Assembly: GCF_016097555.1 (NCBI RefSeq) | Contig: NC_054712.1 | Coordinates: forward strand, 41,763,562 to 41,827,561 | Length of the DNA: 64,000 bases | From: Gigantopelta aegis | Taxonomy: Eukaryota; Mollusca; Gastropoda; Neomphalida; Peltospiridae | Direction: 5' to 3' | Shown here: piece by piece, positions 9,480 to 50,700 of the stretch | Numbering within the stretch: position 1 is the stretch's first letter | Layout of the letters: each line of letters starts with the position of its first letter | Made by a program: the position numbers and the translations under genes | Notes under the pieces: generated by a model | Databases searched by the model: none | Told to the model about the DNA's origin: nothing | The model's input: only the letters and a program-made list of their open reading frames with translations

Positions 9480-12400
9480 GTTAGTGTAACAAGTTGGAAT
9501 AATTCCTTATAATATATCCATCTGAATATATGTGTCCGTCTAACTACATGTATCAGTCTTTATGTCCGTCTGTCTGTCTGTCTCTCTCTCTGTGTGTGTC
9601 TCTCTCTCTGTCTCTGTGTGTCTCTGTGTGTGTGTGTGTCTCTCTCTCTCTCTCTCTCTCTCTCTCTCTCTCTCTCTCTCTCTCTCTCTCTCTCTCTCTC
9701 TCTCTCTCTCTCACACACACACAAACACTTTTACTGCCTATATTACAGGATTATCTTTTATTATTCAGAGTGGAGGTTTGTTTTTGTTTAAAGACACCGC
9801 TAGAGCATATATATTTATTTTAATAATTTATCATCAGCTATTGGATGTCAAACACATGGTAACTGTGACATATAGTCGTAGAAAGGAAACTGCATGTGTC
9901 TCACTGTCTCTCTCTGTGTCCGTCTGTCTCTGTCTGTCTCTCTCTCTCTCTCTCTCTCTCTCTCTCTCTCTCTCTCTCTCGCACATTGATTTATTAATCA
10001 TCAGCTATTGTATGTCAAACATTTGGTAATTTTGTCATATAGTCTTAGAGAGGAAACGCATTATATATTTTCATTAGTAGTAAGGGATCTTTTATGTGTA
10101 CCACAGACAGAATAGCACATACCATGGCCTTTGTTATAGTTACCGGTTGTGGTGGTGCACTGGCTGGAACAAGAAATAGCCCAATGGGCCAACCGATGGA
10201 TTTTAAAAATTAATTGTTATTCCTGTCTTCCCTTATACTCCAAACAGCCGTAATATAAACTGTGCTGTTCAGCATGATGTTAAACACACAGTCATGTATT
10301 GCTTGGCTTTTTGTCAGGAGATCCACAGCGACAGTCGGCCGTACACCTGTGATATCTGTGGGAAAGGTTTCAAGCAGTTCAGTCAGATGAAGAACCACCA
10401 GGTGAGAACATAAATGTTAACGACCAGGTGAGATCATACACAGGTAATATAAAGGTTCTGGTGGTGGTGGCTGTTGATGATACAGTGAGATCATACACAG
10501 GTAATATAAAGGTTCTGGTGGTGGTGGCTATTGATGACCAGGTGAGATCATACACAGGTAATATAAAGGTTCTGGGGGTGGGAGCTATTAATAACCAGGT
10601 GAGATCATACACAGGTAATATAAAGGTTATGGGGGTGGGGCCTATTAATGACCAGGTGAGATAATACACAGGTAATATACAGGTTCGGGTGGGGGGGGGG
10701 GGGTATTGATGACCAGGTGAGATCATACAAGGTGATATAAAGGTTCTGGGGGTGGGGCCTATTAATGACCAGGTGAGATCATACACATGTGATATAAAGG
10801 TTTTGGGGGTGGGGACTCTTAATGACCAGGTGAGAACATTCACAGGTGATATAAATGTTCTGGGGGTGGGGACTCTTAATGACCAGGTGAGATTGTACAC
10901 AGGTAATGTAAAGGTTATGGGGGTTGGGGCTATTAATAACAAGGTGAGATCATTCACAGATAAAATAAAGGTTATGGGGGTGGGGACTCTTAATGACAAG
11001 GTGAGAACATTCACAGGTGATATAAAGGTTCTGGGGGTGGGGACTCTTAATGACCAGGTGAGATCGTACACAGGTAATATAAAGGTTATGAGGGTTGGGG
11101 CTATTAATAACAAGGTGAGATCATTCACAGGTAAAATAAAGGTTATGGGGGTGGGTGCTATTAATAACCAGGTGAGATTATACACAGGTAATATAAAGGT
11201 TATGGGGGTGGGGCATATTAAAGACCAGGTGAAATCATACACAGGTAATATAAAGGTTCTGGGGGTTGGGGCTATTAATAACAAGGTGAGATCATGCAGG
11301 TAAAATAAAGGTTATGGGGGTGGGGGATATTAATGACCAGGTGAGATGATACACAGGTAATATAAAGGTTATGAGGGTGGGGGCTCTTAATGACCAACTA
11401 AGAATATTTGTAGGTAACATAACAGTTCTGGGGGTGGGGGCTGTTAATTGTCAGAACATACATAGGTAACATAGCAGTTCCTCTCTACACTCACATGGAA
11501 TGTATCAGGGGAGTATAACATAATGTTTTATGTATATTTTACATGAAATTTCTTGTGACTGCTTGTCTAGTACACATTTCAAACGAGTGATCAACAGCTC
11601 ACCTTGTTGTTGCTTGTGACGAAGACCGTTAGACTGATATGGATGTTTGCTATGTTACTGAACTGTGTTTATCCTAACTGCAGGTGATCCACGAGGGTCG
11701 TGACCCGAAGAGCTCGAGCAGCTGGTACGGGGTGAAGCAGTGTAAGACGTGCGAGCGGTGGTACGCCAACAAGAAGTCGCTCCAGAAACACGTGGAGGCC
11801 GTCCACCACAAGGTGCGGCCATTCACCTGCCCCTTCTGTGAGCACACCGCCGCCAGGAAGGCCATGATACAACTCCACATCAGAACTCACACCGGGGAGA
11901 AACCCTTCACGTAAGATAACTTTATATCATACACATCAGAACACACACTGGGGAGAAACCCTTCACGTAAGATAACTTTATATCATACACATCAGAACAC
12001 ACACACGGGAGAGAAACCCTTCATGTAAGATAACTCTATATCATACACATCAGAACACACACACGGGAGAGAAACCCTTCACGTAAGATAACTCTATATC
12101 ATACACATCAGAACACACACACACCGGGGAGAAACCATTCACGTAAGATAACTCTATATCATACTAACACACACACCGGGGAAAAACCCTTCACGTAACA
12201 TAACTCTATATCATACTAACACACACATCGGGGAGAAACCATTCATGTAAGATAACTCTATATCATACTAACACACACACCGGGGAGAAACCCTTCACGT
12301 AAGATAACTCTATATCATACTAACACACACACCGGGGAAAAACCCTTCACGTAACATAACTCTATATCATACTAACACACACACCGGGGAGAAACCATTC

Positions 12401-47700: not shown

Positions 47701-50700
47701 TGCGGAACGTGCCACACGTTTGGGGAGTGTGGCCCACTCGCGAATTACACCACGTGGAAAGTGGGAGACTACGGCAAGGTCAGCGGACGTGCAAACATGA
47801 TGGCAGAAATATACAAAAACGGACCAATCAGGTACTAGTATTTGGTAACTATTGTACGAAATTAAAAACGTAATTTCCAGGGATGGACCCTGCAGTTTGA
47901 TTAAGGGTGGGGGGGGGGGGGGGGGGGGGCAAAGCGAACCTAATGTCTCCCACCTCATTCTGTCAAGTGGAAATCTGGAACTGACCCAGATAAAGACGGA
48001 TCGAAGAGTTGACTATACGAGGATGAGAGTAGACTTGCTAAGACATTTCATTTTATAAGTGTATTTGCAATGACAGCTACTATACACAATGTATAATACA
48101 TTACTTTATGTAACATAGCTGACATGTATAAGCTAAGAAAGGTTTTGTTGTGTATATAATGTTAAGTATTGTAGTTACCATATTAAATCTACGAAATATC
48201 TTACCGTCGTTGCAGTATTAAAACTACCGTAGGTCTTGTTAAGTAAATAATCTAATTATAATATCTAATTATTGTAGTTGCCATATTGAACCTTCTAAAG
48301 GCCTTGTTAAGTATATATAGTATATTATATTATTATAATTGTGTACTTGCCCTATTGAAGGTACGGAAAGTCTTGCCAACTATATATATGTTATTTTAAT
48401 TATTGTAGTTTACATATTAAAGCAACAGGTGGTCTTATGTATATACTATTATAATTATAATATAATTTCTCATATAATATAATTATAATAGTTTAATTAT
48501 AACAGTTGTCATGTTGAAGCTACGGAAGGTCTTGACAAGTATACTGGAGGGGTGTATGAAGAATACAACATAAATCCTAAGGTAAATTCACGTATTTCAA
48601 AGCATGTCACCAGGGTAGGGTTCGGGAGTGCGAATTTCATTTTGAAGGCAGTGAAATTACATAGTAAAGCTGTCGTTCTGTCAGCATTTTTAAAAAGTAA
48701 AAACACAGTATATAAAGTGGTAAGTCGTAGAGCGATTGTTCCTTTATCGTGCTCTGCACAGCGCTTGTTAGCTACTAACTGTAGTCATGTTCCCAGTGAT
48801 CGATTATAATTGAGATTGTTAGCTACTAACTGTAGTCATAATTGTTAGCTACTAACTGTAGGCATGTTCCCAGTGATCGATTATAATTGAGATTGTTAGC
48901 TACTAACTGTAGTCATGTTCCCAGTGATCGATTATAATTGAGATTGTTAGCTACTAACTGTAGTCATGTTCCCAGTGATCGATTATAATTGAGATTGTTA
49001 GCTACTAACTGTAGTCATGTTCCCAGTGATCGATTATAATTGAGATTGTTAGCTACTAACTGTAGTCATGTTCCCAGTGATCGATTATAATCGAGATTGT
49101 TAGCTACTAACTGTAGTCATGTTCCCAGTGATCGATTATAATCGAGATTGTTAGCTACTAACTGTAGTCATGTTCCCAGTGATCGATTATAATTGAGGTT
49201 GTTAGCTACTAACTGTAGTCATGTTCCCAGTGATCGATTATAATTGAGATTGTTAGCTACTAACTGTAGTCATGTTCCCAGTGATCGATTATAATTGAGA
49301 TTGTTAGCTACTAACTGTAGTCATGTTCCCAGTGATCGATTATAATCGAGGTTGTTAGCTACTAACTGTAGTCATGTTCCCAGTGATCGATTATAATCGA
49401 GGTTGTTAGCTACTAACTGTAGTCATGTTCCCAGTGATCGATTATAATTGAGATTGTTAGCTACTAACTGTAGTCATAATTGTTAGCTACTAACTGTAGG
49501 CATGTTCCCAGTGATCGATTATAATCGAGGTTGTTAGCTACTAACTGTAGTCATGTTCCCAGTGATCGATTATAATCGAGGTTGTTAGCTACTAACTGTA
49601 GTCATGTTCCCAGTGATCGATTATAATCGAGGTTGTTAGCTACTAACTGTAGTCATGTTCCCAGTGATCGATTATAATCGAGGTTGTTAGCTACTAACTG
49701 TAGTCATGTTCCCAGTGATCGATTATAATCGAGGTTGTTAGCTACTAACTGTAGTCATGTTCCCAGTGATCGATTATAATCGAGGTTGTTAGCTACTAAC
49801 TGTAGTCATGTTCCCAGTGATCGATTATAATCGAGGTTGTTAGCTACTAACTGTAGTCATGTTCCCAGTGATCGATTATAATCGAGGTTGTTAGCTACTA
49901 ACTGTAGTCATGTTCCCAGTGATCGATTATAATCGAGGTTGTTAGCTACTAACTGTAGTCATGTTCCCAGTGATCGATTATAATCGAGGTTGTTAGCTAC
50001 TAACTGTAGTCATGTTCCCAGTGATCGATTATAATCGAGGTTGTTAGCTACTAACTGTAGTCATGTTCCCAGTGATCGATTATAATCGAGGTTGTTAGCT
50101 ACTAACTGTAGTCATGTTCCCAGTGATCGATTATAATCGAGGTTGTTAGCTACTAACTGTAGTCATGTTCCCAGTGATCGATTATAATCGAGGTTGTTAG
50201 CTACTAACTGTAGTCATGTTCCCAGTGATCGATTATAATCGAGGTTGTTAGCTACTAACTGTAGTCATGTTCCCAGTGATCGATTATAATTGAGATTGTT
50301 AGCTACTAACTGTAGTCATGTTCCCAGTGATCGATTATAATTGAAATTGTTAGCTACGAGGCATGGGATTTTTAATCCAGATACCGACTCCAAACCCTGA
50401 GTGAGTACTCCGCAAGGCTCAATGGGTAGGTGTAAAACCACTTGCACCGACCAGTGATCCATAACTGGTTCATCAAAAGCCATGGTTTGTGCTATCCTGC
50501 CTGTGGGAAGCGCAAATAAAAGATCCCTTGCTGCTAATCGGAAAGAGTAGCCCATGTAGTGGCGACAGCGGGTTTCCTCTTAAAATCTGTGTGGTCCTTA
50601 ACCATATGTCTGACGCCATATAACCGTAAATAAAATGTGTTCAGTGCGTCGTTAAATAAAACATTTCTTTCTTTCTTTCACAAACATTTTGCTGGCACTG

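Follow-up and report, generated by a model that had tools for sequence, protein, structure and literature searches.

Six tandem arrays in a 64-kb stretch of the genome of the vent gastropod Gigantopelta aegis (the window, C14:41763562-41827561 in an assembly of 1.149 Gb) repeat the coding edge that they adjoin, in units of about 57-88 bp, as wraparound alignment shows unit by unit. The edges belong to three adjacent genes. In the zinc-finger gene LOC121388997 they are two 5' splice sites and the stop codon; in LOC121388584, an FHA/TIFA-like gene, the start codon; and in the cathepsin Z gene CTSZ, the 3' splice sites of exons 4 and 5. These arrays are the same structure as the amphioxus repeats known as "mirages", and the cases at the stop codon and the start codon extend that structure to edges other than splice sites. 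Coordinates are window positions, and features are on the forward strand unless stated otherwise.

Anatomy of the arrays

The joined models of the three genes are 100% identical to G. aegis proteins, namely, 1008 aa to LOC121388997, 381 aa to LOC121388584, and 290 aa to cathepsin Z-like [Gigantopelta aegis], and because all three match in this way their coding edges are sound. The FHA match of the LOC121388584 product is weak and falls under the Pfam cut-off, and "TIFA-like" is the name given to this gene in the first-pass annotation of the window.

Three of the arrays are in the zinc-finger gene. Array 1 (10402..11448) follows exon B (10318..10401), whose 5' splice site agrees with the protein match and is the seed of the array. 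It has 18 full units of 57 bp, and one shortened unit on the exon side, that carry CAG/GTGAGA and repeat the 5' splice site of position 10402; only 5-8 of the 57 nt are exonic. Array 2 (11876..16086) has 75 full units of 58 bp that are copies of the end of exon C (11684..11910) and of its 5' splice site at 11911. The final 35 nt of the exon (the HIRTHTGEKPF region, with the TGEKPF linker), the 5' splice site, and about 21 nt of intron make up each unit, and the array has a higher-order repeat of 116 bp and, by reading, another of about 287 bp. Array 3 (17094..17332) has 4.1 copies of a 59-bp unit across the stop codon, which ends at 17149; its first unit is coding and 56 of the 59 nt of the unit are coding. 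The coding sequence of this gene also has two in-frame tandem duplications, at 8092-8183 (45 bp) and at 16606-16676 (36 bp), with two copies each.

Array 4 (22920..24087) has 13 full units of 88 bp and ends on the start codon of LOC121388584 at 24073. Its unit has 15 coding nt and includes a putative 3' splice site at 24046. The first-pass annotation had placed this array on a 3' splice site plus the start codon, and of these the gene model backs only the start codon. Array 5, on the 3' splice site of CTSZ exon 4 (47681..47831 in the joined model), is one array in two parts, a distal part (45504..45740) with 66-bp units and an exon-side part (47404..47693), with 8 full units over both. Between them is a retroelement-like insertion (45750..47400, reverse strand) that was recognised by eye from the sequence and its open frames. 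The unit of this array reads ...CCCTTTAACAG/AATGCGACCCGTT across the splice site, with 13 exon nt. Array 6 (~48184..48543) consists of 6 degenerate units of 62-69 bp, with about 38 exon nt, on the 3' splice site at 48506 of CTSZ exon 5 (48506..48581 in the joined model).

In all six cases the array copies are on the non-coding side of the edge: they follow the stop codon and both 5' splice sites, and they precede the start codon and the two 3' splice sites. Among the six arrays, coding nt make up from 5-8/57 to 56/59 of the unit and therefore the edge junction is not its centre. Since the units include sequence that is conserved at the protein level, such as the TGEKPF linker and, by comparison with human CTSZ, the CDPF and a further stretch of 13 residues of that protein, the exon is the source of the copies and not the reverse. 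The six units are mutually unrelated, as all 15 of their pairwise comparisons fall inside the shuffled range. Thus, the positions that the first-pass annotation gave for the six arrays are confirmed, and its claims that each array copies the edge it touches and that the units are unrelated in sequence both hold.

The gene models suggest that the splice site, start or stop in use is the one on the exon side, as the annotated proteins match its use. Among eight decoy 3' splice sites of CTSZ that were examined, seven put a stop codon inside the resulting extension and the eighth gives a 14-nt extension, and read-through past either 5' edge in the zinc-finger gene (10402 and 11911) meets a stop within 12 nt. 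The mean identity to the exon-side unit is 72-92% by array, and identity to the exon-nearest full unit drops with distance in array 1 (rho -0.48, p 0.049) and in array 2 (rho -0.38, p 0.0009). In array 2 the CpG of the splice site has decayed to about the same degree as the unit's other CpG, and so a special purge of decoy sites is not seen. By eye, nothing clear in the way of microhomology was found at the ends of the arrays.

Enrichment of arrays at coding edges

Two tests were used to compare coding edges with the rest of the window. In the probe test, which is independent of Tandem Repeats Finder (TRF), a 60-nt probe across each edge was compared with its own non-coding flank, with 60 control stretches. 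Of the 31 edges probed, 25 were coding edges or splice sites supported by the protein matches. The remaining six were the 3' splice sites before the start codons of the zinc-finger and TIFA-like genes and, in a CD36-like gene, four edges that were read by eye. The probe beat all 60 controls in seven of the 31, and these are exactly the six arrays, array 4 being hit by two probes. None of the other 24 probes beat all of its controls, and that of CTSZ exon 6 tied with its best control. Plain overlap of edges with local repeats was dropped as a test, because 7/31 edges compare with 26% of background window positions that are locally repeated, and it is the seed test that carries weight.

In the seed test, 16 non-microsatellite arrays with units of at least 25 bp were compared with 26 coding edges under uniform placement. 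These 16 are a hand selection from 52 TRF clusters in which split arrays were merged and units shorter than 25 bp or of simple sequence were dropped. Six of the 16 straddle a coding edge against an expected 0.36-0.42 (P ~1e-6, which is not the P of a blind test because the window was picked by a reader who had seen the pattern), and when the test was limited to the gene span the expectation was 0.55 (P 8e-6). Nine of the 16 have units of at least 50 bp, and six of those nine are at edges. The first-pass annotation had asked whether arrays coincide with exon edges more often than expected, and within the window they do. It had also taken the arrays for independent events that share a rule of placement. 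Independence with a shared tendency of placement is supported in the window by both tests and by the lack of relation among the units, and the same anatomy recurs elsewhere in the genome, as described below. Edge seeding is, however, no rule for all arrays, as the remaining 10 of the 16 are not at coding edges.

Occurrence elsewhere in the genome

Arrays are frequent in G. aegis. A genome sample of 21 stretches of 10 kb taken at round coordinates (210 kb) has 39 of them, or 18.6 per 100 kb. In one of these stretches (L022) the array consists of copies of an apparent 5' splice site of a first exon, which stays putative because the 894-aa open frame near it has no Pfam match. Four other arrays were considered and rejected: two in L021, one of them extending into L030, that have strong 5' splice motifs and, by reading, no exon at their ends, one in L015 that looked SINE-derived by eye (SINE, short interspersed nuclear element), and one in L001 near which no exon was seen by eye.

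A further case was found in an exon of the cathepsin family, which ends in ...GGCGC/GTAAG and is directly followed by 46-bp units made up of 41 exon nt and GTAAG. This locus (L038) was not a blind draw, since it was fetched because the array of the neighbouring locus L004 resembled an exon end, and within the family only L004 and L038 were traced to exon edges. From the sequence we take the gene to be cathepsin C-like, and two chaperonin genes treated below to be CCT5-like and CCT6-like; the searches gave Pfam families only. At the other end of this cathepsin C-like exon, a 35-bp array with CAG at the unit ends (L038:1-183) comes to within about 20 nt of the 3' splice site, and it was not significant in the probe test.

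The chaperonin genes were chosen by family before any arrays were seen, and cover, in whole or in part, five of nine CCT-like loci. Of their 57 edges, 47 were probed at hand-picked sites (two of them one base off), eight were probed separately, one was left out, and one, the 3' splice site in L039 that the automatic pick passed over and that was found by TRF and reading, was aligned without controls. This last is the 3' splice site of a CCT5-like exon and has an array of 61-bp units with 12 exon nt. The 5' splice site of the same exon has a 2-copy duplication with 13 exon nt and a spacing of about 230 bp, which was not listed by TRF and was added by hand, as 225 bp, after its probe match. Repeats also reach two 3' splice sites in CCT6-like sequence, one with 3 exon nt and the other with 0. 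By this lenient count 4/57 edges are reached by repeats against 0.71 expected (P 0.0025). The structure therefore extends beyond the window, yet most of the edges sampled have no array and most arrays are elsewhere.

Origin of the arrays

An explanation of these arrays has to account for copies of conserved exon sequence, a constant polarity, recurrence in several genes, and, for the one unit searched through the assembly, no listed match away from its own locus. We consider it probable that the arrays are minisatellites of the mirage type, that is, products of ordinary local tandem duplication that survive when they are astride a coding edge and then undergo array turnover. A local DNA event, either slippage or the repair of a staggered break by fill-in, would duplicate in tandem a stretch of 57-88 bp astride the edge. 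With the copy placed outside the coding part, the original splice site, start or stop, being outermost, would still function and the duplication, being nearly neutral, could become fixed, while the same duplication inside an exon would mostly be purged. Later slippage and unequal exchange may expand, homogenise and shrink the array, and purifying selection would keep the exon-side unit so that seeds persist and can restart arrays. The two in-frame duplications in the zinc-finger coding sequence fit the view that duplications strike exons and that the tolerated ones survive.

Several results weigh against this explanation. Arrays 3-6 have no significant trend of identity with distance, and neighbouring units are slightly more alike than the mean pair in only three of the six arrays (1, 2, and 4), a comparison that carries no significance figure. 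In the 39 units of the genome sample splice-like motifs are not clearly in excess (5', 17 against 15.6 expected; 3', 30 against 24.7), and for this reason seeding at edges is probably the route of a minority of arrays across the genome. When at least 5 exon nt are required, the chaperonin count falls to 2/57 against 0.63 expected (P 0.12), a rate below the 6/26 of the window (Fisher P 0.010), so the window is richer than the sample and the small chaperonin sample supports the edge excess only partly. Lastly, uniform duplication followed by a survival filter predicts about 0.4 edge arrays in the window and not six. Since the filter by itself predicts so few, the explanation would need either extra input at exons or long-lived seeds. 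Candidates for what makes edges exceed uniform seeding are accordingly a higher input at exons, at which the two in-frame duplications hint, and the persistence of conserved seeds.

The first of these candidates can be taken further, by supposing that in this genome exon edges, or exons in general, are a true mutational hotspot of tandem duplication over and above the effect of a survival filter, the cause being splicing or transcription, chromatin, or the pausing of replication. Such a hotspot is compatible with the survival explanation and we regard it as a serious possibility, although we lean slightly against it. The excess at edges in the window, the lenient chaperonin count, and the presence of two in-frame duplications in 5.0 kb of coding sequence all speak for it. 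On the other hand, the window is a single one that was selected for looking odd, and the chaperonin count is not significant when taken strictly. Of the four lenient chaperonin cases, one entered the list by hand once the probe had found it and another shares no exon sequence. The arrays at the stop codon and the start codon, moreover, argue against a cause linked to splicing. A stronger form, which we put forward tentatively and think rather doubtful, is that the coding edges of this snail are long-lived hotspots at which arrays are born repeatedly because selection keeps the exon-side seed, that exons are duplicated well above the intronic rate, and that the process, although observed to date in minisatellite-rich genomes only, is general to animals and supplies ready-made splice sites for intron gain.

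The first-pass annotation had also suggested R-loop-associated duplication. If R-loops at splice sites drove it, a G-rich non-template strand would be expected. The GC skew of the sense strand in arrays 1-6 is +0.49, -0.32, +0.46, -0.17, -0.31, and +0.10, respectively; arrays 1 and 3 are thus G-rich as this idea predicts, but arrays 2, 4, and 5 are C-rich and array 6 is near neutral, and R-loops are not a general cause and very unlikely to be the one sought. For another of its suggestions, a mobile mechanism that copies boundaries, taken here as a mobile element or satellite that also inserts them, nothing was found in favour. The six units are mutually unrelated, and when the 58-bp unit of array 2, the only one so searched, was compared with the 1.15 Gb assembly by a search that skips very common words, 75/75 listed matches were at its own locus, in one array. 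We give this mechanism almost no credence. It is also extremely unlikely that the arrays are artefacts of repeats collapsed or expanded in long-read assembly. The copy number of the long arrays may be wrong in an assembly of PacBio subreads, and the published G. aegis assembly, which is assumed to be the one used here, was made by Canu correction and wtdbg2 and then polished (PMC7895826). However, the units diverge from the exon-side unit to an extent that an assembler is unlikely to invent, array 5 is split by an insertion, and such arrays are present at several loci.

Relation to known systems

The first-pass annotation knew of no described process that multiplies splice sites in place, but such repeats are on record. 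The mirages of amphioxus are minisatellite-like tandem repeats that likewise span the boundaries of exons with introns, both 5' and 3', in Adh3, the globin genes BflGb6 and BflGb9, troponin C, and PGBD5 (PMC3087553, PMC3902484). Their mechanism is called unclear, and a model of intron gain is proposed (PMC3087553). In G. aegis the unit spans the exon-intron boundary at four splice edges of the window, two of them 5' (10402 and 11911) and two 3' (47681 and 48506), and also in L038 and L039. Units of 57-88 bp in the window and 24-93 bp at the other loci lie within the 10-160 bp of amphioxus, while the 2-copy duplication of about 230 bp in L039 falls outside that range. Regular splicing is reported for mirages in amphioxus; in the snail it is suggested by the gene models, whose annotated proteins agree with the exon-side splice choice. 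The snail arrays differ in being in a gastropod and not in a cephalochordate, in their concentration (six in three adjacent genes), in having up to 75 full units, and in including a stop codon and a start codon, and they are known here from the sequence of one assembly.

A second parallel is the gain of introns by tandem duplication of AG/GT proto-splice sites (the Rogers model), for which cases in Drosophila (PMC2891723) and the globin model (PMC3087553) are described. There too, tandem duplication multiplies splice-competent sequence in place, but the snail arrays lengthen existing introns and no new intron is shown. Among lophotrochozoans, the metallothionein genes of earthworms have minisatellite arrays inside an intron, and the text seen of that report mentions no copies of exon edges (PMC12783039). 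In the literature searched, the coverage of which left out most subscription papers, no such arrays were reported for molluscs, Conus included. Internal tandem repeats have reportedly altered gene structure in human paralogues within segmental duplications.

Mirages in a gastropod mean that the process is not a peculiarity of lancelets, and new splice sites may arise from it. With six in a single window of 64 kb and more elsewhere in the genome, they point to a wider process, and as this genome has examples at different stages, duplication bias, survival filtering, and intron gain become measurable in it. They are also a warning that exons in such genomes can be flanked by decoy splice sites that are almost the same as the true ones.

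Other repeats in the window

Two arrays in CTSZ introns have no exon edge as seed. That in intron 1 (31467-32247) has 67-bp units, is split by a SINE-like insertion, and has no exon edge close to it. That in intron 5 (48765-50357) has near-identical 51-bp units (98-99% matches by TRF) with a TACTAAC motif, shows no edge seed, and is followed by a SINE-like repeat. By eye, the arrays at 28288-28415 in the window and at L030:654-2000 appear to have been seeded within SINE-like repeats, and because some arrays look seeded in this way exon edges are not the sole seeds. An open frame at 59936-61003 codes for a transposase of the Tc1/mariner type (Pfam DDE_3 and HTH_Tnp_Tc3_2).

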